A stretch of 64,000 nt of DNA from Rhizobium subbaraonis (GTDB lineage Bacteria; Pseudomonadota; Alphaproteobacteria; Rhizobiales; Rhizobiaceae), in assembly GCF_900220975.1 (NCBI RefSeq), contig NZ_OBQD01000016.1, forward strand, positions 54,410 to 118,409. Reading direction: 5' to 3'. Below are positions 410-16,034 of the stretch, piece by piece. The notes beneath the pieces are model-generated. The model made no database searches and was not told where the DNA came from. It saw only the letters and a list, made by a program, of their open reading frames with translations. The translations under genes were made by a program, and so were the position numbers. How positions within the stretch are numbered: position 1 is the first letter of the stretch; each line of letters starts with the position of its first letter.

Positions 410-429
410 GCCGCCTTTCGTGCGTCCAA

Positions 430-780
430 TCAGGCGGCCCGCACCCCCTTTTTTACCCGCAGGCTGGAAGCTGTGCGGTGGGCCTTGAGATAGGTCGCAT
501 CGATCATGATGGTCTTGTGCTCTGCAGCTTCAGGCACAGCCAGGCCCTCCATCATCTGGATAAAGATGCCCTTGTCGCTCCAGCGTTTCCAGCGGTTATA
601 CAAGGTCTTCGCCGGACCATATTCCCTCGGCGCATCACACCACCGGAGGCCGTTGCGATTGACGAAAATGATGCCGCTCAGGACACGCCGATCATCGACA
701 CGCTGGCGGCCATGGCTCTTGGGGAAATAGGGCTGAAGACGGGCCATTTGCTCCTCCGTCAGCCAGAACAAATTACTCAT
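430..780 (-). CDS. IS5-family transposase, first frame (OrfA)
   Basis: This 116-residue protein has the N-terminal IS5-family domain (WLTEEQMARLQPYFP) and a central segment with the first catalytic Asp (IMIDATYLKAHRTA). It ends near a run of A followed by G on the coding strand, where a -1 shift would join it to the second frame. That is the usual way this IS group makes full-length transposase. The product would cut and move copies of its own element. Confidence 0.85.
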   Translation of the reverse strand: MSNLFWLTEEQMARLQPYFPKSHGRQRVDDRRVLSGIIFVNRNGLRWCDAPREYGPAKTLYNRWKRWSDKGIFIQMMEGLAVPEAAEHKTIMIDATYLKAHRTASSLRVKKGVRAA

Positions 781-874
781 CAGTCGGGCTCCTATCCGCC
801 CGTCTGAATCATAGCCGTCAATTCAAATCAATGGGTCCTGACCCTAGGGCCTTCCAGAACAGCAGAGCTCTGCT

Positions 875-1159
875 GTGTTGGCCACCGAAAGCCAAGAGGT
901 CAGATACTATATGTTTCCCCGAGTCCAGGTGATCCTTGCTCAGCACAATGCCGGTGAGATATTTTACAGCAAACGCCTGCTTGGAGACTGCATGGTTTTG
1001 CCAGAAAATGTCGGCGCCGCGATGAATTGCAATTCATGTCATTTGCCTGGCGGTAAAGTGGACGCGGCTAACGGTTACGTCAACAATTTTTATCCACGCG
1101 TAATGCCCCGTGCGGGGAAGATGGTCGGTCTGGAAATGCCAATCAAGAGGCGCTATTGA
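875..1159 (+). pseudogene. c-type cytochrome fragment (TsdA-like)
   Basis: About 95 residues are readable, with one haem-binding CNSCH motif in the context AAMNCNSCHLPGGKVD followed by NNFYPRVMPRAGK. The spacing and the following residues resemble one haem domain of thiosulfate-dehydrogenase-type dihaem cytochromes. The 5' end abuts the IS5 element, the reading frame stops soon after the haem segment, and no signal peptide remains. I read it as a broken remnant of a gene cut by IS insertion. The family assignment is by motif only. Confidence 0.5.
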
Positions 1160-1223
1160 CGGACGGCGTTTATTAGGCGTATTCTTCATGACGGATTTGT
1201 GAAATCACGGCAGCGTAGCCGTG
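1156..1223 (+). promoter_or_regulatory. Leader 1: promoter and ANTAR-type P1 hairpin
   Basis: A TTGACG -35-like box lies at 1156-1161. Downstream, positions 1206-1223 form a perfect 6-bp stem (CACGGC/GCCGTG) closing the six-base loop AGCGTA. ANTAR-protein targets are known for hexaloops with A at position 1 and G at position 4, and this loop fits. A weak second stem, GGC/GCC at 1236-1247, overlaps the 5' arm of the terminator that follows, as expected for antitermination. Confidence 0.55.
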
Positions 1224-1245
1224 CCAAAATATGATGGCAAGATGG

Positions 1246-1294
1246 CCTCCATGCATCCTTGATCACGAGGGAAGCTGGAGGTTTTTGTGTTTTT
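1246..1294 (+). terminator. Intrinsic terminator in the amiC leader
   Basis: CCTCCA at 1246-1251 pairs with TGGAGG at 1276-1281, with further inner pairing. A T-rich tract (TTTTTGTGTTTTT, 1282-1294) follows. It lies only 83 bp before the amiC start, so it would attenuate amiCR unless it is antiterminated. Confidence 0.65.
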
Positions 1295-1300
1295 GGAGTT

Positions 1301-1384
1301 ATGAAAAGTTCGTTCGTGGTGCAATTAGCAGGCGAAAAGCCGCACTGGGGAATGCTTCAAACCGGGAGCAACTGCATTGATTAA
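1301..1384 (+). CDS. Possible 27-residue leader peptide before amiC
   Basis: An ATG at 1301 follows GGAG (1295-1298) and opens a 27-codon frame ending in TAA at 1382-1384. It overlaps the TTG start of amiC by eight bases, so translation could be coupled. It starts just after the terminator T-tract. It may be a real leader ORF or the remnant of a longer gene; no family is recognised. Confidence 0.3.
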   Translation: MKSSFVVQLAGEKPHWGMLQTGSNCID

Positions 1385-2528
1385 ACCGACCGATACTTCG
1401 GAGCCATGGCGTGTTGGAGTGCTGTTTTCCCGAACGGGTTTCATGTCCGTTATTGAGGAAACGCAGCTCCGGGGAACATTGCTGGCTATAGACCAGATCA
1501 ACGACAGCGGCGGCATAAACGGTCGTCCGCTCGAGCCCGTAATCTACGATCCGGGCTCGGACACGCGTTCTTACGGACAGCTCGCGAAGCGGCTGATGGT
1601 GGTAGACGAGGTCAGCACGATTTTCGGCTGCTACACGTCAGCGAGCCGGAAGTCGGTGCTTCCGGTCGTCGAACGGCTGAACGGGTTGCTGTGGTATCCG
1701 ACGCTTTACGAGGGGTTCGAGTTTTCCCCCAACGTGATCTATACCGGTGCGACCCCCAACCAGAACAGCATGCAACTCTGTAGTCTGCTTATGAAGCTGT
1801 ATGGCGACCGGTTCTTCTTCATCGGTTCCGACTACATCTATCCGCGGGAATCCAACCGTATCATGCGTGAAATGGTGGCGCGGAGCGGAGGAAGCGTTGT
1901 CGGCGAGCGTTACGTGCGCCTCGGGGCGTCGCGGCTGGAGTTCGAGCCGATCATGCAGGAGATCAAGCTCGCAAAACCCGACGTGATCTTCTCGACGGTC
2001 GTGGGAGACGGGACGGTCTTCCTCTATCAGGCGTACTCAGACAAGGGTTTCGATCCCAAGAAAATGCCGATCGCCAGTCTCACGACATGCGAGGCGGAAA
2101 TCGCCGCGATGGGTCACGACGTCGGCGAGGGCCATCTGACCGCCGCTCCGTATTTCCAGGGTATCGGCAACAACCAGAACAGCGAGTTCGTCAAGAGTTA
2201 CCAGAAGCGGTACGGCGACGACGCCCCGACGAACATGTGCCTCGAATCCTCCTATTTCCAGGTGAACGTCTTCGCCAAGACCCTCGAGCGCGCGAACTCC
2301 CTCGAAACCCCCGTTCTAAGGGCGATGGTGATGGGATCGGAGTTCGAAGCGCCTCAGGGGGCCGTGTCGATCAATCCGAACTGGGCGCATGCCGACCTGT
2401 GGTCGCGGGTGGGCCGCGCCAACCGAAACGGCCAGTTCGATATCCTGTTCGAATCGAGGACGACAGTGAAAGCAGACCCCTTCCTCATAGGAAGCGGGCG
2501 TTGCACCGTCGCGGCCGCGGCAGTTTAG
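1377..2528 (+). CDS. amiC: AmiC-like amide-sensing periplasmic-binding-fold protein
   Basis: The 383-residue protein has the type I periplasmic-binding fold of AmiC/UrtA/FmdD proteins. Family-typical stretches are GVLFSRTGFMSVIEE, FGCYTSASRKSVLPV, WYPTLYEGFEFSPNV, FIGSDYIYPRESNRIM and FSTVVGDGT. There is no signal peptide, which fits a cytoplasmic regulator like Pseudomonas AmiC rather than an ABC-transporter binding protein. In that family it holds the ANTAR protein inactive until a small amide or urea-like ligand binds. The TTG start at 1377 is chosen because GGGAG lies at 1364-1368. The adjacent downstream gene is the AmiR-like partner, 13 bp away. The ligand is not known here. Confidence 0.85.
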   Translation: MIKPTDTSEPWRVGVLFSRTGFMSVIEETQLRGTLLAIDQINDSGGINGRPLEPVIYDPGSDTRSYGQLAKRLMVVDEVSTIFGCYTSASRKSVLPVVERLNGLLWYPTLYEGFEFSPNVIYTGATPNQNSMQLCSLLMKLYGDRFFFIGSDYIYPRESNRIMREMVARSGGSVVGERYVRLGASRLEFEPIMQEIKLAKPDVIFSTVVGDGTVFLYQAYSDKGFDPKKMPIASLTTCEAEIAAMGHDVGEGHLTAAPYFQGIGNNQNSEFVKSYQKRYGDDAPTNMCLESSYFQVNVFAKTLERANSLETPVLRAMVMGSEFEAPQGAVSINPNWAHADLWSRVGRANRNGQFDILFESRTTVKADPFLIGSGRCTVAAAAV

Positions 2529-2541
2529 TGGGAGGGGTTGA

Positions 2542-3198
2542 ATGTCGAGAATAGAAGTACTTCAAGAGCGACGTCTCGCGTCTCCGCCTCAGGGAGCGGT
2601 TCGAAACGAGCAGTCGGCACCCAACAACCAGTACAAGGCCGTGCAGAACCTGAACGTCGCCCTTATCGTCGAGCTGGACAGCGAGGGAGAGCGGCTCATG
2701 CGCGAGCTGCAGCGCCTGCGCTGCACGGTTCGTCATATCTGGCCCGTGCCCGTCCAACTGCCCGAGAACTACGACGTCGTCTACTGCACCCTGATGGAAG
2801 ACCTTCCACGCCGCATTCCATGGCTTCCGGGCGAACCGTCGACAACGTTGATCCTGGTCGATCGCGGCCAGGACACGCTCAATCTCAAGCTTATCAACAA
2901 CTGCGCCGCCCACGGCATGATCCACTACCCGCCGACCGCACGTTCGACGATCGGAGCGTTGGCGATGGCCAGGGAGCACTTCCTCTACGAACAACGTCTG
3001 CGGGGACGGATCGAGAAGCTCGACGAAAACCTGAGGACAATGCGCGTGGTCGAGAAAGCGAAGTCGATCGTGATGCGCACAAAGAGTCTCGGCGAGGACG
3101 ACGCCTACAATTTCCTGCGTAGTCAGGCGATGGAACGGAGAGTGACGATCGGCGTAATCGCCAAGGCCGTCGTGGAGTCGTTCGATCTCCTGAACTGA
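2542..3198 (+). CDS. amiR: AmiR-like ANTAR-domain transcription antiterminator
   Basis: This 218-residue protein has an N-terminal pseudo-receiver region (about 30-140), a coiled-coil linker (about 145-170) and a C-terminal ANTAR RNA-binding domain (about 168-215, with VEKAKSIVMRTKSLGEDDAYNF). ANTAR proteins bind paired RNA hairpins and let polymerase pass leader terminators. The start follows GGGAGGGG. It is co-transcribed with the AmiC-like gene, the standard sensor/antiterminator arrangement of amidase and nitrile hydratase operons. Its likely targets are the three hairpin-terminator leaders at 1156-1294, 3215-3337 and 6561-6684. Confidence 0.87.
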   Translation: MSRIEVLQERRLASPPQGAVRNEQSAPNNQYKAVQNLNVALIVELDSEGERLMRELQRLRCTVRHIWPVPVQLPENYDVVYCTLMEDLPRRIPWLPGEPSTTLILVDRGQDTLNLKLINNCAAHGMIHYPPTARSTIGALAMAREHFLYEQRLRGRIEKLDENLRTMRVVEKAKSIVMRTKSLGEDDAYNFLRSQAMERRVTIGVIAKAVVESFDLLN

Positions 3199-3214
3199 GG
3201 TCGGTACGACGTCG

Positions 3215-3263
3215 TTGACAACAACGCTTTCGAGCGTAAGCTTCTGCTCAGCAACGTAGCTGA
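3215..3263 (+). promoter_or_regulatory. Leader 2: promoter and ANTAR-type P1 hairpin
   Basis: TTGACA (3215-3220), a 16-bp spacer and TAAGCT (3237-3242) make a good sigma-70-type promoter. Its start point falls at the base of a perfect hairpin TCAGC/GCTGA (3248-3263) with loop AACGTA (A1, G4). A minor stem ACGCT/AGCGT (3224-3237) lies within the promoter. The same plan occurs at 6561-6610. Confidence 0.6.
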
Positions 3264-3282
3264 CTGAAATTTCGGCAATAAG

Positions 3283-3337
3283 CGCCTCACTGCATCCGTC
3301 CTTCGGGGACGCATTGCGTGAGGCGTTTTTCGTTTTT
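3283..3337 (+). terminator. Intrinsic terminator in leader 2
   Basis: CGCCTCAC (3283-3290) pairs with GTGAGGCG (3318-3325). An inner stem-loop is capped by TTCG, and the T-tract TTTTTCGTTTTT lies at 3326-3337. It sits 17 bp before the next start codon, so it is an attenuator, not an end-of-operon signal. Confidence 0.75.
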
Positions 3338-3354
3338 AATGCGAGGAGATCGCG

Positions 3355-3972
3355 ATGCCTTTGAACAGTCGGAATTCGGTTTTCACGATCGCCACGTCTC
3401 TGGCGATATGTGCGCTTTCCTCAGTGTCGATCTCATCGAACGCGCACGCGCATTCGATGAGATTTTCGGACGGAGCAGGGACGCCGAGAGGGGTCGAGAT
3501 CGCCTCTATCGCGCATTCGGACATGGAACTGCTTTCCAAGTTCCGCCCTGACATCATTTCGCTGGCGGAACGGCAGGTGAAGACGGACGAGCGGATGCGA
3601 CGGCTCATGAACTTCTCGAAAATCCAGTACACCTACTGCCTGTGGGGTATGATCCCGGGGGCGCTGACGGACGAGGAGAGCGACTTCAACGCGTGTTCAC
3701 ACGCCTACCTAGCGTCGGCTTTGGCACTCCTCGATCATATGGAGAGCATGCCCTTGGCCAGCGCCGAGGCGGTAGCGATAAGGCAGGCGATCGACGTCGA
3801 GCGGGCGGCCTCGCCGTCGTTCGTGCTGTGCAAGAGCAGCGCCGATCTCTTCTACACGGATCGGGTACTCGTACCCCGGCAAACCTTTGCGACCGCAGGA
3901 GGGGCTTTCGGTCTCCTCCTGTTGGTCGGCGCACTGCCACTGTTCCGGGTCCGCCGCCGGGTTTCGCGTTGA
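3355..3972 (+). CDS. Exported or membrane-anchored protein of unknown function
   Basis: The 205-residue protein has an N-terminal signal sequence (hydrophobic stretch about 8-28, probably cut after SNAHA). The soluble region has three Cys residues in its middle and C-terminal half. A C-terminal transmembrane segment (about 180-198) is followed by RVRRRVSR, like a sorting or anchoring tail. I do not recognise a family. It is the first gene after leader 2 (GAGGAG ribosome site) and lies 8 bp before the CobW-containing gene, so it should be induced with the cobalt genes. A periplasmic role in metal handling is possible but unproven. Confidence 0.7.
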
Positions 3973-3980
3973 GAGTGACG

Positions 3981-6038
3981 ATGGCCCATATTCAAACCAC
4001 CTCGGACGTCGCAATCATCAAGTCGGGCTTTCCGTTATTGGCGAGGATGGTTGTCGATCCGAATTTCGAACTCAGTCTGGGCGCTTTCGGCGCGGTCGGC
4101 CAGTTTCCCCGCGAGGCGCGCATTTTTGTCGATGTTACAGACGACCGCGTCAGCGCGGCGACGGAGAGCTCCAGCATATCGCTACGGCGGCACGATCACC
4201 TGCGCCTCGTGGCGTTCGAAACACTGAGTTCCGACCCCGAGGGCTGGAACTGCGGCATCGCCATATGCCTGCCGGAAGAACAAGCGCGGATGTCCGCGCC
4301 GGGGCGTCCCGCGGAGGACTGTCTGGACCGTCACGCGATCTTTGCCGCCCATCGAACTCGGACCGTCCTCGACATCGTTGCAGGAAGTCCCTACGCGGAT
4401 ATCCGCCTGAGGGCGGACAAGGGTGCTCTGCCGGATTTGCGTGATCGTTCGCACGGCTCCGTACTCGATGCCGACCTCGTCGAGATCGAAGATTGCATCT
4501 GGATTTTCGAAACGGCCGTCGGGCGGATTGAGACCGGGGATCGTCGACGTCGCCACTTCCTTTCGCAGCTCTTCGGCACCACGGATACGCACTCCCGAAC
4601 CCTCCCTATTCCAGAGGGCCTGGTACCGGTCGGCTATGCCTTTCCTCCCAATCCTCGGCAGGCCGAACCGGGAGCGTGGGGAGCAGCTCATTTCTCGTTT
4701 CAAGTTATCCTAGACGAACATGGCGTTCCGGAACTCGTAAAACTCAAGAGACGCGTGGAGCGAGCGCTCGAAGACGGCAAGTCGAACGAAGTATTCGGGT
4801 CTCTTCTCGAACATTCCGGCCCACCGACCCGGATGGAAATCGAATGCGTCCGGATCGCGCTGCGGCAGCGGCGCTGGCTCAGGGGCGGACGACCGGCGCA
4901 CGGATGGGAAGACGAGTTCGACGCCCCGTTGGCCAAGACACGCGGCGGCACGACGGCTGGCGAGATGGTTAACCAGCCGACGACAATGAAAGACGAAATT
5001 GATCGAGACGCAGCGACTGCCATAGCCGGCGTCGCCAAAGCCAGAGAGGTTCACATGTCAACCGCAACTCAAACCAACGACCGCATCCCGGCAACCGTTA
5101 TTACGGGTTTCCTCGGGTCCGGGAAAACAACCCTCGTGAACAGGATTCTTCACGAGAACCACGGTAAGAAGATCGCCGTCATCGTGAACGAGTTCGGCGA
5201 GATCAGCATCGACGGCCAGCTGGTCATCAGGGACGAGCAGGCGGAACTCGTCGAGTTCAACAACGGTTGTCTCTGCTGCACAGTCAGGGGGGATTTGATC
5301 GAGACGCTCGAAAGGCTTCAGGAACGCGCGGGCGAACTCGAGGGTATCCTGATCGAGACGACCGGGCTTGCCGATCCCGCTCCAGTCGCTTCCACTTTCT
5401 TCGTCGCCGACGACGTGAAAAGCCGCATTCGCCTCGACGCGTTCGTGACGATGGTCGATGCGGTCAATCTGGAGACAAATCTCAAACAAAGCCCCGAGGC
5501 CGTCGAACAGGTGGCGTTCAGCGACGTCGTGCTGGTGAACAAGATCGACGTCGCCACGCCGGAACAGGTGAAAAGCGCGGAAGCGACGGTACGCAGGATC
5601 AACCCGCTCGCACGTATCCATTTCACGGCGAACGCCGAGATCGATCTGGGACACGTAATCAACGTAGGCGCGTTCGACCTCGTGCAGAAGCTCGATGTCG
5701 ATCCGGGCTTCCTCGACGACCACGAGCACGAACACGATCCGGCGGTCGGGTCCTTCATCCTCGAGGAAACGCGGCCCATCGATCTCAATCGCTTCTCCCT
5801 CTGGCTGAACGAAGTCGCCCAGACGCGTGGACAGGACCTCTACCGGACAAAGGGCATCTTCCACGCCAGGGGGTTCAAGGAGCGGGTCGTCTTTCAGAGT
5901 GTCCGGATGCTGACGACAATGCGCATGGATCGCCCGTGGACCGACGACGAGCCACGCGTGTCGCAATTCGTTGTAATCGGGAAAAACCTCGATCGCGAGG
6001 CATTCGCCGACGGCTTCGCGCGCTGTGTGGCGGGATAG
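3981..6038 (+). CDS. Unknown domain joined in frame to CobW-type GTPase
   Basis: One uninterrupted frame of 685 residues. Residues 1-358 are a domain I do not recognise, with no obvious signal or membrane segment. Residues 359-685 are a complete CobW/P47K metallochaperone: GTPase P-loop [10 protein letters not shown], the metal-binding motif GCLCC, NKID base-recognition motif and a His-rich stretch HEHEHD. No stop codon separates the parts, although the CobW half is full length by itself and has its own ribosome site and ATG at 5055. The product could be a true fusion, or two proteins from nested starts after loss of a stop codon. Family members deliver metal to enzymes such as cobalt nitrile hydratase. 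Confidence 0.75.
5055..6038 (+). CDS. CobW-family metallochaperone GTPase (internal start)
   Basis: From the ATG at 5055, preceded by GAGAGG at 5044-5049, the product would be 327 residues, the usual CobW length. It has the P-loop near residues 12-20, GCLCC near 73-77 and a His/Asp-rich loop near 217-224 that could bind metal. CobW/P47K proteins use GTP to insert or traffic Zn or Co. The neighbouring CbtBA cobalt transporter favours cobalt. This entry is the alternative to the long fused frame; either or both may be made. Confidence 0.65.
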
Positions 6039-6047
6039 GGCGCGGCG

Positions 6048-6425
6048 ATGACCCTCGTATCGGGATCGAATGCCAGCAGCGTGGACACCGGCGAACCAGT
6101 CTACCAGGTTCATGTCTTCTGTTGCACGAACGAGCGGCCAGCTACTCATTGGAGGGGATCGTGCGGAGCCAAACGGGGACGACAGCTGTGCGATTACATG
6201 TGTCGCCTCGCGATGACCTTGGGGATGAGGCGGATCCGGATAAACCACGCCGGATGCATGAACGTCTGCGAACATGGTCCGGTGATGGTGATTTATCCCG
6301 AAGGGGTCTGGTATCGCTTCGAAACCGAAGACGATGTCTCGGAAATCCTCCGGTCACACGTCGGTGGAGGGCGCCATGTAGAAAGGCTCAGGCTTCAGAT
6401 CGATCCAAATACAATTCACGGTTAA
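6048..6425 (+). CDS. Thioredoxin-like [2Fe-2S] ferredoxin
   Basis: This 125-residue protein carries the Cys pattern of thioredoxin-fold [2Fe-2S] ferredoxins: VFCCTNERP, then SCG, then HAGCMNVCEHGPVMVIYPEGVWY. It starts 9 bp after the CobW stop, so it belongs to the same operon. Ferredoxins of this type are common beside cobalamin and cobalt genes. Here it may supply electrons for metal handling or for the missing enzyme. Confidence 0.8.
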   Translation: MTLVSGSNASSVDTGEPVYQVHVFCCTNERPATHWRGSCGAKRGRQLCDYMCRLAMTLGMRRIRINHAGCMNVCEHGPVMVIYPEGVWYRFETEDDVSEILRSHVGGGRHVERLRLQIDPNTIHG

Positions 6426-6560
6426 TATGGTTGCTGTAGGCGGTTCATATCACGCGGTGCAGAACTGCGTCTAAACTTTATGCAATAAGTCTAGTATTTG
6501 TGCGCAGTGATGACAAATTCGGCTATGTAAAATATTCGCAAAACATGCCGAAATAGTCGC

Positions 6561-6610
6561 TTGACAAACCACAATAGCGATGTAGGCTCCCACTTCAGCA
6601 ATATAGCTGA
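6561..6610 (+). promoter_or_regulatory. Leader 3: promoter and ANTAR-type P1 hairpin
   Basis: TTGACA (6561-6566), a 16-bp spacer and TAGGCT (6583-6588) precede a perfect TCAGC/GCTGA hairpin (6595-6610). Its six-base loop is AATATA, with A at position 1 but not G at position 4. Promoter spacing, stem sequence and the downstream terminator match leader 2, so the two are homologous regulatory cassettes. Confidence 0.6.
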
Positions 6611-6629
6611 CAACATTTCTGGCAATAAG

Positions 6630-6684
6630 CGCCTCACTGCATTCGTCCCTCGGAGACGACCTGCGTGGGGCGTTTTTCGTTTTT
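6630..6684 (+). terminator. Intrinsic terminator in the cbtB leader
   Basis: CGCCTCAC (6630-6637) pairs with GTGGGGCG (6665-6672), keeping the stem through a U-G pair where leader 2 has U-A. The T-tract TTTTTCGTTTTT (6673-6684) follows. The retained pairing supports a real RNA structure. It lies 23 bp before cbtB. Confidence 0.75.
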
Positions 6685-6707
6685 GGTCTCGAAAAAAGGA
6701 GAATGAG

Positions 6708-6926
6708 ATGTCTGCCATTACCAATCCGAACGTATACAACTCCCCCGCCGACGACGCGATCCCGCTCGGACAGGTCCTGCCTTGGGCAGTCTTCGGAGGG
6801 ATGATGATGCTTCTCTCGATCTACTTCGTCGGCGTCGAGGAAGGTGCGATGTCGCTCGTTTCGAGCAACTACGTCCACGAGTACGTCCACGACGCTCGTC
6901 ACCTCCTCGGCTTCCCCTGCCACTGA
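6708..6926 (+). CDS. cbtB: Cobalt transporter subunit CbtB
   Basis: The protein has 72 residues with one transmembrane helix (about 24-45) and a C-terminal His-rich tail HEYVHDARHLLGFPCH, the hallmark of CbtB. The ATG at 6708 follows AAAGGAGA. It pairs with the CbtA permease 21 bp downstream for cobalt uptake across the inner membrane. CbtB is usually controlled by a B12 riboswitch, but none is seen here; leader 3 takes that place. Confidence 0.88.
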   Translation: MSAITNPNVYNSPADDAIPLGQVLPWAVFGGMMMLLSIYFVGVEEGAMSLVSSNYVHEYVHDARHLLGFPCH

Positions 6927-6947
6927 TCTGACAAAGGAGATACGGCG

Positions 6948-7682
6948 ATGGTCGGAAAACTGCTCGTAAGAGGAATGTTGGCTGGTGTCATCGCCGCCAT
7001 CTTTGCCTTTGCCTTTTTCAAGTCCTACGGCGAACCGTGGGTCGATCACGCGATCGCGATCGAGGAGCAACATAGTACGGCGGCCGGGATGGCCGCCGAA
7101 CCCGAACTCGTCAGCCGTTCCGTCCAGGCGGGACTGGGCCTTCTTACCGGTGTCCTCGTCTACGGCGTGGCGATCGGCGGACTGTTTGCCATTGCCTATG
7201 CCTTCGCGAACAAACGTCTCGGCGTGCTGAGCCCGCGCAGCACCGCTATGCTGATCGCCATTGTCGGACTGGTGGCTCTGATCGTCGTGCCTGCTCTGAA
7301 ATATCCGGCTAACCCGCCAGCAGTCGGAAGCGGCGACACTATCGGCGCGCGGACGCAGCTATACTTCCTGATGGTCGCGGCTTCCGTCTTGTCGGCGACG
7401 CTATCCATCATGGCTGCCACGAAGCTGTGGCCTAAGATCGGCGGGTGGTACGCGTCGCTTGCAGCCGTATGCATCTATGCCGGCATCGTAGCGGTCATGA
7501 TGCAGATCCTTCCTGCGGTGAACGAGGTTCCCGAAGACTTTCCCGCTGAAACCCTCTACAATTTCAGGACCGCGTCGATCGCTGGTCATGTGATATTCTG
7601 GACGCTGCTCGGCGTTGCATTCGACATCCTGCGGCTATTGTCCGAAGCGCTGTGGCCAAGGCGAGGAATCAACGCGGCCTGA
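6948..7682 (+). CDS. cbtA: Cobalt transporter permease CbtA
   Basis: This 244-residue integral membrane protein has about five or six hydrophobic segments and a conserved N-terminal region with HxxAI-EEQH (VDHAIAIEEQHSTAAG), consistent with the CbtA family. The ribosome site is AAAGGAGA. With CbtB it forms a cobalt uptake system. Its position after the ANTAR-type leader and before the tubulin-like genes suggests that cobalt uptake is induced with them. Confidence 0.85.
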   Translation: MVGKLLVRGMLAGVIAAIFAFAFFKSYGEPWVDHAIAIEEQHSTAAGMAAEPELVSRSVQAGLGLLTGVLVYGVAIGGLFAIAYAFANKRLGVLSPRSTAMLIAIVGLVALIVVPALKYPANPPAVGSGDTIGARTQLYFLMVAASVLSATLSIMAATKLWPKIGGWYASLAAVCIYAGIVAVMMQILPAVNEVPEDFPAETLYNFRTASIAGHVIFWTLLGVAFDILRLLSEALWPRRGINAA

Positions 7683-7741
7683 CCGTCCGTGAGTACGTCG
7701 ACCGTTTCCATTCATGCGTCAAATGTTGAGAGGTAATGAGA

Positions 7742-9265
7742 ATGTCCACGAACGTAGGCCTCGACATCGACCGCGGTCGGCCGCTTCCTGCTATCGGCAC
7801 CACCGAAGCAAAGCTTCAACAAAGAAAACTGGACGCCCTACGTCGCGGCGTCCACCGGATCCAGGACCACTCCGAAATGCCATTCGGCATCCATCTCGTC
7901 GGCATCGGCGGCGCGGGCTGCCGGGTGATCGAGGAATTCCTGAACACGGCTCCGGAAAACCTACTCGACAAGCCCGGTTCGAGGTTCACCGCCCTCGCGA
8001 TCGATGTCGGCGACGATGACCTCCTCAAGGTGCGTACTTCTGCGACCAGGTTCCCAGAGGAGCGCACCCAGGTTGAAACGGTTGCGCTCGACATGGCGTC
8101 GTCGGAGGAGCTGCAGGAGGTCGTCGGGAAATACGCGGATTTCCTCAAGCTCGAATACCCCATGTACCATCCGAACCCCGGTTCAACCTCGTGGTTGCCT
8201 TCGGGGAAGTCGATACGGGCCGAAGACGGGTCGATGACCCGGGCAGGTTCGAAGGCGCTATACGGCCAGGCGTATTACGATGCCGACAGGCCGATGCAGA
8301 AGGCCTTGAAACGGTTCGTCGCCAGCGTCGAAAAGACAGGCGGCAACTCGATCGTGTGTATCGTTTTCGGTCTGGCCGGGGGGACCGGAAGCGGGATCGC
8401 GATGGATCTGGCCCGCCATCTCTCCTCGGTCCAGTTCGGTCGCCGGGTTCTCGTGACAGGCCTCGGGATCGCGCCGCATCCCGACGAGGTGACCCCCGAC
8501 AAACTGACGCGGCTGCATGCCGTCTTCTCCGAGCTGGACGTGCTCTGTGACGAGACGAAGAACGCGGGAATCACGCTCTCGTGCGGCGACCTGTTCAAGA
8601 ACCCGTTCACCGCGGGTTTCATGATCATTCCCCAGCCTGCGAACGTCAGCGTGTCGGAAGCCCGGGAAGAGGTGAGCAAGCGGCTCGCGAAGCTTCTGTT
8701 CGAACGCCGCGGAGCGAACGTCTGGGAGGCGCTGAGGCTCCTTAACTGGGTCGCCGCGCCCTCCACACAGCATTCGGCCGCGAGAACGCCCTGGGGTTCA
8801 AGGTGGATACACATGATCGGTTCCGCGCCGGATGGTAACGGCTCGTCGAACAGGGACCTGCGGAAAGACCTCGGGTTGCTGGAGGACTATCAGCCGGAAT
8901 TCCTCGAATTGAGGGCGTCGGGCACGATCGACGAAAGCGAACGCAAAGCCTGGACGGAAGCGCTCGATGCAGCTTTCAGCCCGGAGGCACCTACGTGCGC
9001 CACGGACGGCGGCTCGCCGGGCATCGTTCAATACCTGTTGCCGCGTCTGGCACTCAAGGACCTGTCGGTTTTCGAAGCCGCGCGGAATGCCTACGACGAA
9101 GCCGACCTGCTCCATCGCCAGTCGGAACACGCGCTGTTGCTCGACCAGGGAATTCTTCTTTGCGAGCCGTCGACCGCGATCGAGGGAATGGCGGGCGCAA
9201 GTCTCGGCGGCGGAAGCCAGTGGATCGCGGTACCCCGCGATCAGCTGCGCGGTCGGTACGAGTGA
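7742..9265 (+). CDS. Tubulin/FtsZ-like GTPase family protein 1
   Basis: This 507-residue protein has the two nucleotide-binding signatures of the tubulin/FtsZ superfamily: N-terminal HLVGIGGAGCRVIEEFL (about 44-60) and the G-box LAGGTGSG (about 210-218), close to the tubulin form GGGTGSG. It is too divergent and long to be cell-division FtsZ and belongs with the tubulin-like proteins of unknown role. The ATG at 7742 is preferred over 7736 because GAGAGG lies at 7728-7733. It is followed by a small gene, two paralogues and a MoxR-VWA pair. It may build a GTP-dependent scaffold; polymerisation is not shown. Confidence 0.75.
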   Translation: MSTNVGLDIDRGRPLPAIGTTEAKLQQRKLDALRRGVHRIQDHSEMPFGIHLVGIGGAGCRVIEEFLNTAPENLLDKPGSRFTALAIDVGDDDLLKVRTSATRFPEERTQVETVALDMASSEELQEVVGKYADFLKLEYPMYHPNPGSTSWLPSGKSIRAEDGSMTRAGSKALYGQAYYDADRPMQKALKRFVASVEKTGGNSIVCIVFGLAGGTGSGIAMDLARHLSSVQFGRRVLVTGLGIAPHPDEVTPDKLTRLHAVFSELDVLCDETKNAGITLSCGDLFKNPFTAGFMIIPQPANVSVSEAREEVSKRLAKLLFERRGANVWEALRLLNWVAAPSTQHSAARTPWGSRWIHMIGSAPDGNGSSNRDLRKDLGLLEDYQPEFLELRASGTIDESERKAWTEALDAAFSPEAPTCATDGGSPGIVQYLLPRLALKDLSVFEAARNAYDEADLLHRQSEHALLLDQGILLCEPSTAIEGMAGASLGGGSQWIAVPRDQLRGRYE

Positions 9266-9276
9266 CGGAGGACGAG

Positions 9277-9603
9277 ATGGCACTCGATTGGAAAACGGTA
9301 AAGGCAAAGTACGGAAACGGATACCAGGTCCCAACGATCCGTGGCGGCAAGTTCGTGAACATCACCCGTGTCGACGACGTGGCGATCTACATCGAGAGCC
9401 CGATCTGGAGCGCGACACTGCAACGAAAGAACCTCGAAGCGGGGGTGGCGTTGATCGAGGAGGGCGTCATCTCCCGTGATCCCGGGCTCTTCGTCGAAGA
9501 CTACATGATCTACGTGGCGCACGAGCGAGCGAGTTCGGTCGCCCATATTCTCCGAGACCTCGGAATTCTCGATCAGACGGAGACGTTCAGTATCCGTTGT
9601 TGA
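9277..9603 (+). CDS. Small protein of unknown function in the tubulin-like operon
   Basis: This 108-residue soluble protein starts after CGGAGG, 11 bp from the tubulin-like gene before it. I recognise no family. It has one Cys at the very C-terminus, no signal peptide and mixed alpha/beta character. Its place between two tubulin-like paralogues suggests it is a partner or adaptor of that set. Confidence 0.6.
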   Translation: MALDWKTVKAKYGNGYQVPTIRGGKFVNITRVDDVAIYIESPIWSATLQRKNLEAGVALIEEGVISRDPGLFVEDYMIYVAHERASSVAHILRDLGILDQTETFSIRC

Positions 9604-9706
9604 TGGTGGCGAACCGCAACCCAACATGCGCGGATGAAAGAGGCACGCCACCTGGCTCCGATAACCGCGTCGGCATAACCAATCACATCCAGAGGAGATA
9701 CATAAC

Positions 9707-11401
9707 ATGGCATCGTCATCAATGTACCACAGCGCGACGGGGACCCAGTCGCCCCATTGCATCCACGCGATCGGGATCGGCCGCACCGGGGCCGCCTACA
9801 TCGAAGCGCTGCTCCGGACGGGCGAAGTCGAAGACCTTCTGGCTTCCGACTCCCGCGCCACCTGCGCCGTGATGATCGTCGATATCGGCGAGCAGGACAT
9901 GAACGTCGCGATCGACTACGCCAACTCGTTCAAGCAGCGCCTGCAGTCCCGCGGCGTTTCGGCCGACAAGTTCAATTTCCAGGCGATCGCGCTGCCCGTC
10001 CCGGACAAGCAGGAGTTTTTCGAAGGTCTTAACCGGACCCGCGAGTTCCTCAAGCTGGAATATCCTCGCTATTACTGGAACCCGAACTTCGAATCCTACG
10101 TCTCGCACAAGTACGTTCTGCCCGAAGCCGGAAACCACTTCCCGCGCCTGGTCGCGAAGGGCATCTACGCCAACGCCTACTACGCTGGCGAGCGTCCGAT
10201 GGACGTCGCCCTGCGCAGCTTCGTGGACACGGTCGAGCAGGCGCAGCTACCTTCGATGGTCCTCGTTCCGTTCAGCATCGCGGGCGGCACCGGCAGCGGC
10301 ATCGTGGTCGATCTGGCGCGCCATCTGTCGAACCTCAAGTTCGGTCGCCGCATTCCGGTCATCGGCGTCGGACAGCTCTCTCACGTCGGTGACGGCGAAG
10401 AAGTCCACAACGGGGCGGGCCAGTACACAGCGCTCAACGAAATCGACTGCATGCTCGACGACGACAAGAACGCCGGCGTTACCGCCGTATGGGGCGAGCC
10501 TTACCGCAACCCCTTCACGGGCGGCTTCTTCGTCGTCAATCCGGAACACAGCTGGCATCGTCTGACCGCCTACACGACGACAGGCGAGAAGGAAGTCCGC
10601 CAAAGCTTCCGCCAAATGGTCACCAACCGCTTCGTCGCGGACAGCTTCATGCGGTTCGCCGTCATGGACTACGGCCGCGTCCTGTTCCGCGCCCTTCGCC
10701 CGGCGGGTTTCACGGGTGCTCCCCACGAAACCCTGTCCTCGAAGTCGCGCAACTGGACCCTGTTCGATGTCGCGAAGCTGACCCATCCCGGCGTTCAGGT
10801 GCTCCCGGGCGAGGCGGCCTCGAAGTGGCAGGCGACGATCGCCCAGTGGATCGACTTCATTCCGCAGTACAGCGGTCTGCGGGACGGGTTCAAGACGGAC
10901 TATGCCGAGGTCCACATCCACGCATCCCGCGACATGGGCTTCGACAACATCGAAAAGGGTATCAAGGAACTGGTGTCCAAGAACTACCTTCTCGAAGGCG
11001 ACTCGACCTACCAGACTTATAACCACGAGTTCTTCGATGTCCTGACCTCGTACGCCAACGTCATCATGCCCGGCGTCGCGAAGACCGATCTGCATGCATT
11101 CTGGGAAAGCCAGAAGGCGTACGACAAGCTCGACTGGGAAACCAAGCTGCACGAGCATGCCTGGCTCGTGGATATCGGACCGATGCTCTCGGAGCCCGCG
11201 ATCCGCTTCGAGGGCATGGCCGGGGAATGCATCTGGGGCTGCGCATGCTGGGTCGTCGTTCCCTACGACCAGCTCCGCGGCGACAAGCTGCCCCCGCCGA
11301 ACCGCAAGGTCATCCGCGAGGAAGCCATCGCCATGATGACCAAGACCGTCGTCAAGACGCCGGGCGGCGAAGCCAAGAAGCTCGCGAAGGCTCACGCCTG
11401 A
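9707..11401 (+). CDS. Tubulin/FtsZ-like GTPase family protein 2
   Basis: This 564-residue paralogue has the N-terminal glycine loop CIHAIGIGRTGAAYIEALL (about 17-35) and an intact G-box SIAGGTGSGIVVDLARHL (about 188-205). It also has a long C-terminal half with aromatic-rich stretches (FIPQYSGLRDGFKTD). The start follows AGAGGAG. It is more similar to the third, truncated paralogue than to the first. Codon use is strongly biased to C/G-ending codons, suggesting high expression. It would bind GTP and possibly assemble; its cellular role is unknown. Confidence 0.75.
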   Translation: MASSSMYHSATGTQSPHCIHAIGIGRTGAAYIEALLRTGEVEDLLASDSRATCAVMIVDIGEQDMNVAIDYANSFKQRLQSRGVSADKFNFQAIALPVPDKQEFFEGLNRTREFLKLEYPRYYWNPNFESYVSHKYVLPEAGNHFPRLVAKGIYANAYYAGERPMDVALRSFVDTVEQAQLPSMVLVPFSIAGGTGSGIVVDLARHLSNLKFGRRIPVIGVGQLSHVGDGEEVHNGAGQYTALNEIDCMLDDDKNAGVTAVWGEPYRNPFTGGFFVVNPEHSWHRLTAYTTTGEKEVRQSFRQMVTNRFVADSFMRFAVMDYGRVLFRALRPAGFTGAPHETLSSKSRNWTLFDVAKLTHPGVQVLPGEAASKWQATIAQWIDFIPQYSGLRDGFKTDYAEVHIHASRDMGFDNIEKGIKELVSKNYLLEGDSTYQTYNHEFFDVLTSYANVIMPGVAKTDLHAFWESQKAYDKLDWETKLHEHAWLVDIGPMLSEPAIRFEGMAGECIWGCACWVVVPYDQLRGDKLPPPNRKVIREEAIAMMTKTVVKTPGGEAKKLAKAHA

Positions 11402-11471
11402 TCCGACTTCACCTACACCGAAGCCCGGAGCCGCGCCCGAGCGCGGCTCCGAACCAGAAGGGCGAGGGCAG

Positions 11472-12287
11472 ATGCACGAAAAACTCCAGTCGTTGATTAT
11501 CGAAGACGAACCGTACTACCGCAGCAGCGGGAACGAGGTCGCCCTGTTCAGCGCCGCGATGAAGCGCAAGCTCCCTATGATCCTCAAGGGCCCGACAGGT
11601 TGTGGCAAAACCCGGTTCGTCGAGCACATGGCCTGGCGTCTCAAGCTGCCGCTTATCACGATGGCCTGCAACGAGGACATGACGGCTTCCGATCTCGTTG
11701 GACGCTGGCTCCTCGATGCCGAAGGTACGCAATGGCATGACGGCCCTCTGACCACGGCCGTGCGTTATGGCGGCCTATGTTATCTGGACGAGGTCGTCGA
11801 AGCTCGCCAGGATACGACCGTCGTCATTCATCCACTGACGGACGATCGCCGTATCCTCCCTCTCGACAAACGAGGAGAGGTCGTGAAAGCCCACCCGGAC
11901 TTCCGCTTGGTTGTTTCTTACAATCCGGGGTACCAGAGCGCGGCGAAGGATATGAAGCAATCGACCCGGCAGCGCTTCGGAGCGATCGACTTCGATTTCC
12001 TGCCGCAGGCGGTCGAAGTCGAAGTGGTAGCGCACGAGAGCGGCGTCACTCCGGAGATAGCCACGAGACTGGTCTCCGTTGCGACCCAGTCGCGGGCCCT
12101 AAGGGGCAGGGGACTGGACGAAGGTATCAGTACCCGGATGCTCGTCCACTCCGGCTCTTTGATCAGTGAGGGCATCTCTCCTCACGACGCCTGCGCGCTG
12201 GCGATGACCGCGCCGCTAACGGACGATCCGGATCTTCAGGCGGCGATGAGCGGCTTCGTGGAGGCTCAGTTCGGTCCACGCCCATGA
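11472..12287 (+). CDS. MoxR/CbbQ-type AAA+ ATPase
   Basis: This 271-residue AAA+ ATPase has Walker A GPTGCGKT (40-47), a Walker B region GLCYLDEV (near 99-106), sensor residues near VVSYNPGYQ and a C-terminal four-helix lid. It resembles CbbQ/NirQ/NorQ, which act with a VWA partner to remodel enzymes or assist metal insertion (Rubisco activase, nitric oxide reductase, Mo-Cu CO dehydrogenase, cobaltochelatase CobS). The next gene, overlapping by ATGA, is the VWA partner. The tubulin-like context is unusual. Confidence 0.85.
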   Translation: MHEKLQSLIIEDEPYYRSSGNEVALFSAAMKRKLPMILKGPTGCGKTRFVEHMAWRLKLPLITMACNEDMTASDLVGRWLLDAEGTQWHDGPLTTAVRYGGLCYLDEVVEARQDTTVVIHPLTDDRRILPLDKRGEVVKAHPDFRLVVSYNPGYQSAAKDMKQSTRQRFGAIDFDFLPQAVEVEVVAHESGVTPEIATRLVSVATQSRALRGRGLDEGISTRMLVHSGSLISEGISPHDACALAMTAPLTDDPDLQAAMSGFVEAQFGPRP

Positions 12288-14290
12288 ACGCCCACTTCGA
12301 AGCAATTCAGGGTCCGGTGTCGGCGAGAAAGCTCGGGATGCTTCGCGACATCGATGACTGTGCATATGACGCGCTGATCCGCGCGATGCCGCTGATATCC
12401 GATTATCTCAAAAACGAGATCGATCTGGCAGACCTGGCTGGGCTGTTGTTGCAGATCGCTAGCGAGAAGCCGGAGGCGGCCCGAGCGTTCGCTGATCGCA
12501 TCGGCAACGACCCCTCGTTGGCCGGAGACTACCCCGGCCTGCGCCGATGGGCGGTCCACGGGCTGCAAAAGCATCGGAACGATATTGAATGCATGCTCCA
12601 TCATTTCGAATGGGGCAGCCCGCAGGCGTACTCCGATGAGCAGGCTTTGCACGATACCGAGGAATTATTGCGGGAACGCGGTGCCCTGCTCCATTATCTC
12701 GCCGGGTTCGGGTTCGCCGAATTCTCTATCGATCTCCATGAGCCGGATACCGACGGACGCCAAACTCGTGCGGTAACGATCGATGACGGCGTCATTCGCT
12801 ACCCACGTCGCTTCCACGGCGACACGACTGACCGCGCCCTTCTGCGCCGCGCCAACATCGCGCACGTCGCCGCTCACCTGCGCTATTCTCCGTTGAGACG
12901 TCCCGCTGGCAATCGTCGACCCAGTCTGGTGGCTATGACTGCGCTCATCGAAGACGCCCGCGTCGAACGCCTGATGGTCCGGGACTATCCCGGATTGAAG
13001 GCGCTCTGGGGGGGCTTTCACACCGCGACCCGCGAGGTATCCGGTTTCGATTTTGCAGGCTTGTCGGCTCGCCTGGCGCGGGCGTTGCACGACGACACCT
13101 ACATCGACACGAACCCATGGGTCGGCAAGGGACGCGAGCTTTTCGAAGAAGCCGCCTCGAAAGGACTTGACGATGTCAATGCTTTCGACCGCCTGGCGCG
13201 CACGCTTGCGATCAACCTCGGCAAGATGCGCCTTGAGCCTTCAGCCGACCGTCAACCGGAACCGATATACCGCGACGACAACGCGATCCTCTGGGGACCG
13301 GATACCGCACTTCCGGAAGACGCCGAGCGTCATTCGGAAATCGAGATCGTCGACGCCCTCCAGGACGGGGAGAAGGCGGAACGGGATGTCGAGGGGATCG
13401 ACGTCCGCCATAGGTACCGTTACCCCGAATGGGATCATCGACTTTCGGAACTACGCGAGGGGTGGGCCACGGTCGTGGAGGAGGAGTTGCCGCGTAGGAA
13501 GACTTGGCCTTCGCTTCAACGGCTTACACAACCGAAAATCATTCTCTCCGCGTCCGCACGGGTTCCGGACAGGGCGATCAGGCTGACACGCTTGACCGAG
13601 GGGGACGAAATCGACCTCAATGTCGTCGTTGAGAACGTGGTTCAACAACGGGCTCGACTATCCCCGGACGGTCGCATCTTCTGTCGCCATGGTCGTCGTC
13701 GCAGGTCCACGTCAGTCGTTCTGTTGATGGATTTTTCGATATCCACGGAGCGCTTCGTGCCCGGCAGCTTTACCAAGGTCATCGACGTCGAAAAACAGGC
13801 TGCACTCGTCATCGCCGAGGCGATGGAGGCCCAACACGACCGCATAGCCATTCACGGTTTTTCCTCGAACGGCCGTCACGAGGTTAACTACCGGAGGATC
13901 AAGGATTTCGACGAGCCGTTCGGGGAGGAGGCTCGTTCCAGGCTGGCCGCATCTGCAAGCCGCCACAGTACCCGGATGGGCGCGGCGATCAGACATGCGA
14001 CGGCGCTTCTGGAAGCCGAGGCCGCAGACCACAAGGTCGTCCTTCTCCTAACCGATGGCGAGCCTTCCGATATCGACGTGGCGGAAGACGACTATCTGGT
14101 CGAAGACGCCCGCGAGGCGGTCGTCAGCGCCCTGTCTAAGCGGGTCAGAACGTTCTGCGTCACACTCGACCGCCGCGCCGATCACTACGCTCGTCGTATC
14201 TTCGGACAGCGGAACTTCCTCATCGCCGAACGCGCCTCGACATTCGCGAACCACACCAACAGGACGCTGACACGGCTCCTTGCCCTGTGA
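12284..14290 (+). CDS. VWA-domain protein, NorD/CbbO/CobT-like
   Basis: This 668-residue protein has an N-terminal helical region and a C-terminal von Willebrand factor A domain (about 475-665). The MIDAS metal site is visible as DFSIS (near 481-485), the Thr loop around STRMGAA and LLTDGEPSD. This architecture is that of NorD, CbbO and CobT, which bind MoxR-type ATPases and the client enzyme. It overlaps the MoxR gene by four bases, so the two are translationally coupled. An acidic middle segment is seen, as in CobT. The client is not identifiable here. Confidence 0.82.
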   Translation: MNAHFEAIQGPVSARKLGMLRDIDDCAYDALIRAMPLISDYLKNEIDLADLAGLLLQIASEKPEAARAFADRIGNDPSLAGDYPGLRRWAVHGLQKHRNDIECMLHHFEWGSPQAYSDEQALHDTEELLRERGALLHYLAGFGFAEFSIDLHEPDTDGRQTRAVTIDDGVIRYPRRFHGDTTDRALLRRANIAHVAAHLRYSPLRRPAGNRRPSLVAMTALIEDARVERLMVRDYPGLKALWGGFHTATREVSGFDFAGLSARLARALHDDTYIDTNPWVGKGRELFEEAASKGLDDVNAFDRLARTLAINLGKMRLEPSADRQPEPIYRDDNAILWGPDTALPEDAERHSEIEIVDALQDGEKAERDVEGIDVRHRYRYPEWDHRLSELREGWATVVEEELPRRKTWPSLQRLTQPKIILSASARVPDRAIRLTRLTEGDEIDLNVVVENVVQQRARLSPDGRIFCRHGRRRRSTSVVLLMDFSISTERFVPGSFTKVIDVEKQAALVIAEAMEAQHDRIAIHGFSSNGRHEVNYRRIKDFDEPFGEEARSRLAASASRHSTRMGAAIRHATALLEAEAADHKVVLLLTDGEPSDIDVAEDDYLVEDAREAVVSALSKRVRTFCVTLDRRADHYARRIFGQRNFLIAERASTFANHTNRTLTRLLAL

Positions 14291-14337
14291 GCGACAACTT
14301 GTGAACCCTTACATCAACGAGAAACCGGAGGAACAAA

Positions 14338-15485
14338 TGACAGAGAGCAAACCCACCGCCGCACCGGAACCACACTGTGTCCACGTGATCGGCATAGGTC
14401 GGACAGGAGCGGTGTACGTCGAAGCCTTGCTTCGGACCGGGGAGATCGAGGACAACCTCATGCACGAAGGAACGACGTTCGCTTCCCTGATAGTCGATGT
14501 CGGTGACGATCACATGCAGGTCGCTAACGATTATGCAAGGTCGTTCAAGCCGCGAATGGCGTCGCGTGGCATACCTACCGACCGTTACCTTCACGAGAAC
14601 GTCGTACTTTCGACACCGGAAGCAGGCGCTGTCGGAAAGCAGCTTGCAGCCGGCCTTCAACTGTTCGCAAGTAAGGTGAAAGAAGCCAAGCATCCTTCGA
14701 CCGTGTTCATCGCCTGCAGCCTTGCCGGGAAAACCGGAAGCGGGATGGTGGTGAATATCGCTCGTGAACTGAAGAAACTTGGCCTTGGGGACAATGTTCG
14801 GGTCGCTGGCGTCGGCCAGCTCAGCCACAGCGGTGACGGAGAATACAGCGACAGCATTGATCAAACGAAAGCGCTGGACGAGATCGACGCAACATGCGGC
14901 GCGGCGGAGAACAACCCGTTTACGGGCGGGTTCTATGTCGTTCCGACCGAGCACAGCTGGCAGCGCCTTACCGCCTACACCACGACAGGTGTGAAAGAGG
15001 TACGCCGGTCGTTCAAGCAGATGGTAACCAACCGGTTCGTAGCGGATTCGTTCATGCGATGGGCTGTGTCCGACAACGCTTCGCACCTCATCCGCATGAT
15101 CAAGCGGTGCGGCGGCAAGCTCAACATGTTCGGCATCGCGAAGTTCAGCCATCCTGGCGTCCAGGTACTTCCTGGACAGGCACGGTCGATCTGGGATGCC
15201 GTGCTGCAGCAGTGGATTTCGTTCGTGCCCCAGTACTCGGGTTTGAAGGAAGGTTTCAAGACCGACAGTGTCGAAGTCCATATTTACGCGGCGCGAGATA
15301 TGCGCATCGACGTGATGGAAGCCGAACTCAAGGATGTCCTGGTTTCGAATTACCTCAAACAGGGCAGCTCGGACTACCAAGCCTACAAGAACGAGTTCTT
15401 CGATGAACTGACCTCTTACGGAAACATTATCTTACCGAGTATCGGGAAGAAAGATCTCATGGCGTACGACCGCTCAAGCGGATGA
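14338..15485 (+). pseudogene. Tubulin/FtsZ-like protein 3, C-terminally truncated
   Basis: From the ATG at 14338 (ribosome site GGAGG) 382 residues can be read. The N-terminal loop HVIGIGRTGAVYVEALL is intact, but the G-box reads SLAGKTGSGM, with Lys replacing a glycine that contacts nucleotide. About 80 residues between the two motifs are missing compared with protein 2. Homology to protein 2 stops near 15470, about 75 residues short of its end. The following 120 bp to the IS5 element match neither paralogue. It may be a non-hydrolysing partner subunit or a decaying copy; the deletion at the IS border favours decay of at least the C-terminus. Confidence 0.65.
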
Positions 15486-15624
15486 TCGGCAAGCGAGTTG
15501 TTAGCGGACCTGATCTGAGGGTAAGGGCGCTCGAATCGGACGGCGGGTTCTCCCCGGGGGGGCCGCCTGACCCAGTGGGAGTGATCGTAAACGAGGTGCT
15601 CGATCTAGGGTCAGGACTCATTGA

Positions 15625-16014
15625 TCAGAGCCAGAAGATAACGGTTGCAGCGAGAGCGATGGCGGAGAGGAAGACCATTGGGCATCTGTCGTAGCGCGTA
15701 GCGACACGCCGCCAGTCTTTGAGACGCCCGAACATGATCTCGATCCGGTTGCGCCGTTTGTAGCGGCGTTTGTCGTATTTGATGGTTTTGTTGCGGGACT
15801 TCCGCCCCGGAATGCAGGGGGTGATCCCCTTCGCCTGTAAAGCGTCACGATACCAGTCGGCATCATAGCCACGGTCGGCCAGTAGCCATTTGGCCTTGGG
15901 AAGTTCATCAAGCAAGGCGGCAGCACCGGTGTAATCGCTGATCTGACCGGCCGTAATGAAGAAGCTGACCGGGCGACCATTCGCATCCGTGACGGCATGA
16001 AGCTTGGTGTTCAT
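15625..16014 (-). CDS. IS5-family transposase, second frame (OrfB), copy 2
   Basis: Identical to the 129-residue product of copy 1, with the DDE second Asp in LLADRGYDADW and the terminal catalytic region RNRIEIMFGRLKDW. It is probably expressed as a frameshift fusion with the first frame. Confidence 0.85.
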   Translation of the reverse strand: MNTKLHAVTDANGRPVSFFITAGQISDYTGAAALLDELPKAKWLLADRGYDADWYRDALQAKGITPCIPGRKSRNKTIKYDKRRYKRRNRIEIMFGRLKDWRRVATRYDRCPMVFLSAIALAATVIFWL

Positions 16015-16034
16015 GCCGCCTTTCGTGCGTCCAA

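Follow-up and report, generated by a model that had tools for sequence, protein, structure and literature searches.

The acetonitrile hydratase (ANHase) of Rhodococcus jostii RHA1 is presented, in the parts of the literature drawn on here, as a cobalt nitrile hydratase (NHase) with the gene order alpha, AnhE, beta (PMC3511329; PMC3680314; PMC7193024), in which AnhE serves as a metallochaperone and not as a swapping chaperone (PMC3511329, PMC3680314). Here, we analyze a 64,000-nucleotide stretch of Rhizobium subbaraonis (contig NZ_OBQD01000016.1, positions 54,410 to 118,409; the whole stretch is hereafter called the window), which carries a plasmid-type operon with three tubulin-like genes, two of which, named AnhA and AnhB here, flank a gene for a 108-residue protein, AnhE (Table 1). 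A preliminary description of this DNA had listed AmiC/AmiR, CobW, a ferredoxin, CbtBA, three tubulin-like proteins, a MoxR ATPase and a VWA protein on one strand; all are present on the plus strand according to open reading frames and Pfam matches, though the AnhE gene (9277-9603), a DUF6925 gene and orf205 had been overlooked. Its idea of an amide-controlled cobalt operon serving an enzyme of the nitrile hydratase type is borne out. Its statement that the enzyme itself was absent from the window does not hold, for tubulin-like protein 1, the 108-residue protein and tubulin-like protein 2 are orthologous to the alpha-AnhE-beta set of ANHase. We consider the best overall explanation to be that the operon makes and loads an ANHase-type cobalt nitrile hydratase (probability roughly 0.87), with AnhA and AnhB most likely its two subunits, predicted to convert small nitriles into amides. 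This kind of enzyme is already known from RHA1, and the function proposed here is for proteins that have been recorded as tubulin-like or hypothetical.

A plasmid search with AnhB matched 15 records (12 from Rhodococcus, 2 from Shinella and 1 from Agrobacterium; 6 of the 15 were examined in detail), including pRHL2 of R. jostii RHA1. On pRHL2, an aliphatic amidase is followed by a 514-residue tubulin-like protein, a 99-residue protein, a 568-residue protein, a helix-turn-helix protein and a protein annotated as a nickel transporter; the trio there has the accessions WP_011600030, WP_011600031 and WP_011600032. The window proteins share 37% (AnhA), 32% (AnhE) and 52% (AnhB) identity with their pRHL2 counterparts, and a tree of 110 proteins groups AnhA and AnhB with their respective RHA1 counterparts. 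The middle protein of RHA1 has a mass of 11.09 kDa, and we take AnhE of RHA1 to be 11.1 kDa and the ANHase genes to be located on pRHL2. A classical NHase alpha subunit was found nowhere on the whole of pRHL2. We equate the tubulin-like pair with ANHase because of this collinear orthology with the pRHL2 set, the published order alpha-AnhE-beta, the size of AnhE and the lack of a classical alpha subunit on pRHL2. The two systems have in common orthologous proteins in the same order, with an aliphatic amidase and a metal transporter nearby; they differ in that the window has its cysteine motif in AnhB and CbtBA in place of the transporter annotated for nickel, and in that it additionally holds AnhC (the third tubulin-like protein), CobW, a CbbQ-VWA pair and AmiC/AmiR.

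The proposed enzyme would share its reaction class with classical nitrile hydratase and thiocyanate hydrolase, along with a cysteine cluster ending in C-x-C, but lacks the CxLCSC metal motif, which is absent from all 110 AnhA, AnhB and AnhC proteins and which is said to occur in all known NHases in the part of PMC7329996 considered here. The classical alpha subunit (PF02979) is likewise missing from the R. subbaraonis genome, and the same search did find it in 24 of the 27 further genomes or records covered. A sequence search of the PDB found no ANHase structure, and AnhE as the query returned two weak matches only. As a separate observation, plasmid pNit of Rhodococcus rhodochrous BAA-870 (locus L011, 10121-13701) carries a full anhA-anhE-anhB set, annotated as tubulin-like or hypothetical, beside a classical nitrile hydratase; the table in the genome paper of that strain enters one nitrile hydratase in the portion considered here.

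Both subunits are predicted to adopt the tubulin fold. AlphaFold models, built on alignments of 47 AnhB and 45 AnhA proteins, reached a mean predicted local distance difference test (pLDDT) score of 87.0 and 87.9 and a predicted template modelling (pTM) score of 0.89 and 0.90 for AnhB and AnhA, respectively. In Foldseek searches against the PDB, all of the 50 matches listed for each model were tubulin, FtsZ, CetZ or TubZ entries, or complexes that, going by their titles, contain or may contain tubulins, with CetZ as the best match in both cases (E 2.1e-10 for AnhB and 5.2e-11 for AnhA), and sequence profile searches also ranked CetZ or FtsZ entries at the top (E 0.00058 and 0.021). In a profile search of the window proteins, AnhB and AnhC scored under the Pfam family cut-offs; the fold of AnhB is confirmed by the fold search and that of AnhC is assigned through its 54% identity to AnhB. 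Like tubulin, FtsZ and CetZ, these proteins combine the predicted fold with a glycine loop and the GGTGSG signature, which is found in 43 of 47 AnhB proteins (GTGSG in 47 of 47) and, in its exact form, in only 24 of 45 AnhA proteins; the window AnhA and AnhB both have it, and AnhC reads GKTGSG. Unlike that superfamily, they carry a C-terminal cysteine motif, belong to a nitrile hydratase operon and mostly lack a T7-type NxDxxD/E loop, a pattern found anywhere in the protein in 6 of 50 AnhA, 1 of 52 AnhB and none of 8 AnhC sequences; in the two window subunits, the loops after the central helix are RPAGFTGAPHE and LNWVAAP, with no NxDxxD/E. Binding of GTP by AnhB is possible because GTGSG is kept in all 47 proteins, whereas GTP hydrolysis and polymerization look unlikely, judged from these loops and signatures. 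The classical NHases have a fold different from that of tubulin and, to our knowledge, the tubulin/FtsZ fold is known only from cytoskeletal and related GTPases. No link between nitrile hydratase and the tubulin/FtsZ fold was found in the open-licence literature, a search that was not directed at the cysteine motif, the one-sided losses or the AnhC/CbbQ-VWA branch discussed below.

The C-terminal motif E-C-x-x-G-C-A-C-W (Cys 508, 512 and 514 of the window AnhB) probably holds the cobalt and would be a solution distinct from the C-x-L-C-S-C claw of the classical enzymes. Among 49 loci with both subunits, the motif is present in both at 24, in AnhB only at 13, in AnhA only at 12 and in neither at none, with the AnhB-only state marking the clade of the window and the AnhA-only state Rhodococcus and its allies together with two Firmicutes. 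These counts and the tree use proteins of at least 380 residues (110 rows), which excludes the pieces L031 A (carrying the motif), L035 A, L042 A and L059 B (ending before the motif position). That every locus with both subunits keeps the motif in one or both of them is as expected for the catalytic site of a pair that arose by duplication. PMC3766881 reports one cobalt per functional RHA1 enzyme, and this fits the single motif of that enzyme if the unit is one AnhA-AnhB pair. The alternative that survives best, though we regard it as unlikely, is that AnhA and AnhB are ANHase subunits whose cysteine cluster binds copper or zinc, or is structural, with cobalt held elsewhere, for example by invariant His and Cys residues. 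Such residues exist (H17, H206, C248, H340 and H360 in 47 of 47 AnhB; H228, H346 and H465 in 45 of 45 AnhA) and are better conserved within each subunit than the motif is, and RHA1 ANHase is reported with Co, Cu and Zn in the passages concerned (PMC7193024; PMC3766881); a structural or foreign-metal cluster sits less easily, though not incompatibly, with a motif that no complete pair lacks altogether and whose C-A-C core resembles, by eye, the C-S-C claw of classical NHase.

In the quick unrooted tree of the 110 proteins, a single branch separates AnhA from the rest, and five changes are required to account for the motif; taken as losses, these fall once in AnhA, twice in AnhB and twice in AnhC. 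A duplication is the likely origin of AnhA and AnhB and, if the changes were indeed losses, the tree points to an earlier state with the motif in both subunits, from one or the other of which it later disappeared in different lineages. With some reserve, we favor the view that ANHase is a tubulin-superfamily metalloenzyme, in which a duplicated FtsZ-like GTPase became a heterodimer with its own Cys-x-x-Gly-Cys-Ala-Cys claw, evolved independently of that of classical nitrile hydratase, and underwent three one-sided losses, at least one claw being kept in every lineage seen. If so, an AnhA-AnhB pair with the motif in both subunits, as at an Actinomycetospora locus, would be expected to hold two cobalt ions, the tubulin/FtsZ fold would also work as a scaffold for metalloenzymes, and cobalt nitrile hydratase would have been made at least twice in nature, from unrelated folds. 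Such a reading would further assign a function to proteins entered in public databases as tubulin-like or hypothetical, offer exact candidate residues for the cobalt site of ANHase, and define a nitrile-hydrating family with uncharacterized members in several phyla for use in biocatalysis and clean-up.

Conservation of the neighborhood was assessed at 47 genome loci, fetched by a nonexhaustive contig scan with two short peptide patterns of AnhB, such that AnhB is present at 47 of 47 by construction; record titles place them in Proteobacteria (including two metagenome-assembled genomes [MAGs] named Deltaproteobacteria), Cyanobacteria, Actinobacteria and Firmicutes. Gene presence was scored by identity cut-offs of our own choosing within the DNA stretch fetched per locus, with reading frames extended to the earliest start codon available, which makes some N termini too long, and with near-copies (the window and L009, L008 and L013, L010 and L054) counted separately. 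AnhA and AnhE adjoin AnhB at all 47 loci, some AnhA genes being cut by contig ends, and this trio is constant while the type of cobalt uptake varies (CbtBA, NiCoT or CbiMQO). The preliminary description had held that its proposed link would be accidental if the tubulin-like genes usually occurred without the cobalt and amide genes. That part came out in favor of the link, with CobW at 24 loci, a cobalt transporter at 26 and at least one of the two at 37, an amidase at 31 (29 at 70% identity or more; the other two, L043 and L060, have only a 44-46% relative) and an AmiC-like or other substrate-binding protein at 26, whereas the MoxR-VWA (CbbQ-VWA) pair, at 8 loci, and AmiR, at 4, are not constant parts of the neighborhood. 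MarR occurs at 13 loci, and DUF6925 and orf205 at none of the 47. Exactly one amidase of this type is encoded in 22 of 26 genomes and none in the other 4, and for 19 of the 22 it lies within the fetched locus, where a 20-kb stretch would catch a lone amidase in about 5 Mb with a chance of about 0.4%; of the 53 loci L008-L060, this genome count covered 26 and the PF02979 search 27.

A number of points weigh against identifying the operon with ANHase. The link between ANHase and the pRHL2 genes rests on gene order, neighbors, size and a plasmid location that we presume, the identity to RHA1 is low for AnhA (37%) and AnhE (32%), and the cysteine motif lies in AnhB in the window but in AnhA in RHA1. 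The motif pattern of AnhA and AnhB depends on three changes on a quick unrooted tree, and enzyme activity, metal binding and nucleotide binding of both proteins are predictions. The structural superpositions are loose among the matches listed, with a root-mean-square deviation of 6.6 to 11.4, identity of 9 to 15%, and TM-scores of 0.32 to 0.47 by query length and 0.44 to 0.64 by target length. Neither CobW nor a cobalt transporter was seen at 10 of the 47 loci, three of which (L040, L043 and L060) exceed 20 kb, and no amidase lies in the fetched stretch at 16. The Shinella plasmid locus L012 has CbbQ-VWA, AnhC and the amidase, but AnhA is missing from the stretch examined there and AnhB is represented only by a similar piece of 111 residues. 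The maturation route of ANHase is itself disputed, with PMC7329996 placing it among subunit-swapping enzymes in the part considered here, against PMC3511329. Together with the 16 loci lacking a nearby amidase, dependence on a single characterized relative, RHA1 ANHase, would allow the trio to be a different amide-linked cobalt enzyme, perhaps acting on another nitrogen compound, but gene order, plasmid, amidase and chaperone size are all consistent with ANHase and we judge that possibility to be slight. The preliminary description had instead pictured the tubulin-like proteins as a scaffold or sorting device, powered by GTP, that would serve a distinct cobalt enzyme with its gene elsewhere, a role which the signature retained in AnhB (GGTGSG 43/47, GTGSG 47/47) would suit, but which we now hold to be very improbable given that two of these proteins are collinear orthologs of the ANHase subunits, that the genome lacks a classical NHase alpha, that the signature decays in AnhA and that the loop after the central helix is without the FtsZ NxDxxD/E motif.

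For an ANHase-type operon, the regulatory and helper genes can be arranged into a tentative pathway. AmiC, a Peripla_BP_5 sensor, would sense an amide and release AmiR, its AmiR_N-ANTAR partner, which may then let transcription pass the terminators of two leaders (3196-3345 and 6545-6695), as suggested by the protein families and the anatomy of the leaders. These are 83% alike across 90 bases, have z-scores of -2.37 and -3.38, each combine a strong terminator with a small CAGC-N6-GCTG hairpin, match no Rfam family and are both kept in the plasmid of Agrobacterium tumefaciens MWF001 discussed below, where the second terminator shows paired changes by eye; from sequence, they look like AmiR antitermination sites. 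CbtBA would bring in cobalt, CobW and AnhE would carry it, and CbbQ-VWA may remodel the apoenzyme for metal insertion. AnhA and AnhB, both modelled with the tubulin fold, would together make up the enzyme and, by analogy with RHA1, convert small nitriles to the corresponding amides, the C-terminal cysteine cluster of AnhB would hold the cobalt, and the aliphatic amidase of the same genome would complete the route to acid and ammonia.

Where CobW, cobalt uptake and MoxR-VWA had all been put forward as helpers of metalloenzyme maturation, the first two stand and the last is only possibly one, looking optional at 8 of 47 loci. The pair resembles the NorQ-NorD and CbbQ-CbbO pairs of AAA+ and VWA proteins in having PF08406 and a VWA protein with DxSxS, but differs in adjoining an ANHase-type enzyme and in its presence at 8 of 47 loci only. 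AnhC appears in 8 loci of the tree, in two separate groups, and in 5 of the 47 genome loci, 4 of which have CbbQ-VWA; the contig of the remaining one, L048, stops a short way past AnhC (hypergeometric p 0.0018 for the co-occurrence, with loci taken as independent of kinship). AnhC and CbbQ-VWA may jointly load or repair the enzyme in such lineages.

The operon was probably acquired, since among 151 genomes searched (its own and 150 relatives) the AnhB gene was found only in its own. Positions 1151-15607 of the window share 93% DNA identity over 14.5 kb with plasmid CP129670 of A. tumefaciens MWF001, an isolate from metal working fluid. Gene order is the same in both; the plasmid differs in having an amidase and a second CbbQ-VWA downstream, DUF6925 and CobW as separate genes, and tubulin-like genes without annotated function. 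An amidase module of the MWF001 type (aliphatic amidase and second CbbQ-VWA) lies to the left of the window in the same contig record, on the other strand, with an amidase 99% identical to that of MWF001 at a distance of about 4 kb from the window, across a link that spans a stretch without resolved sequence. An aliphatic amidase and cobalt uptake, the latter through CbtBA in the operon, are thus both close by. Adjoining the amidase module (L065, 15054-17988), and partly so in MWF001 and Shinella, is a set of FecB/BtuF-type substrate-binding protein, permease and ATPase, which may serve uptake of cobalt or a cobalt chelate.

Table 1. Features of the operon and its flanks, by position in the window (IS, insertion sequence)
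Feature	Position	Strand	Basis and remarks
IS copy, IS4/5-type transposase	1..847	-	same sequence and orientation as 15606-16452; target probably CTAG
AmiC-type amide sensor	1377..2528	+	PF13433 (Peripla_BP_5), E 2.9e-138
AmiR-type ANTAR antiterminator	2542..3198	+	PF03861 and PF21332 (ANTAR plus AmiR_N)
Leader 1, proposed AmiR target	3196..3345	+	small CAGC-N6-GCTG hairpin and strong terminator
orf205	3355..3972	+	no Pfam match; 0/47 genome loci
DUF6925 protein	about 3981..5054	+	PF21973, E 5.1e-69; single open frame with CobW here
CobW-type GTPase metal chaperone	about 5055..6038	+	PF02492, PF07683; E 2e-51
Ferredoxin-like protein	6048..6425	+	no Pfam match; near-identical plasmid CP129670 names a (2Fe-2S) ferredoxin domain protein
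Leader 2	6545..6695	+	83% alike to leader 1 across 90 bases
CbtB, cobalt transporter part	6708..6926	+	PF09489
CbtA, cobalt transporter part	6948..7682	+	PF09490, E 3.3e-68
AnhA (tubulin-like 1), predicted tubulin-fold subunit, no Cys motif here	7736..9265	+	Tubulin_2 above cut-off; 37% to RHA1 protein; predicted fold
AnhE-type metallochaperone (putative), 108 residues	9277..9603	+	32% to RHA1 11.09-kDa protein
AnhB (tubulin-like 2), E-C-x-x-G-C-A-C motif, Cys 508, 512, 514	9707..11401	+	52% to RHA1 protein; predicted fold
CbbQ/MoxR-type AAA+ ATPase	11472..12287	+	PF07728 (AAA_5), PF08406 (CbbQ_C)
VWA protein	12284..14290	+	PF00092; DxSxS metal-site motif
AnhC (tubulin-like 3), shorter AnhB paralog, no Cys motif	14337..15485	+	54% identity to AnhB
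Second IS copy, 847 bases	15606..16452	-	identical to 1-847

Two structural interpretations of the locus were set aside. Truncation of AnhC by the IS was rejected, as two plasmid relatives of AnhC end at the same residues, and we do not retain a clean composite transposon either, because sequence on the outer flank of the left IS copy is not resolved. A search of viral contigs for relatives of the operon found none, and no mention of DUF6925 was found in the open-licence literature. DUF6925 and CobW (3981-6038) form one open frame in the window and separate genes divided by a stop in the MWF001 plasmid, so that the single frame is either a fusion or a frameshift. Among the other loci, a second AnhE-like gene stands 3' of AnhB in many of those of the Pseudonocardiales type (most of L036-L045, L050 and L060), and an operon closely related to this one, with 88% identity in AnhB, occurs in a Mesorhizobium MAG (L014) with an isolate name starting SCN18, perhaps from a thiocyanate reactor.

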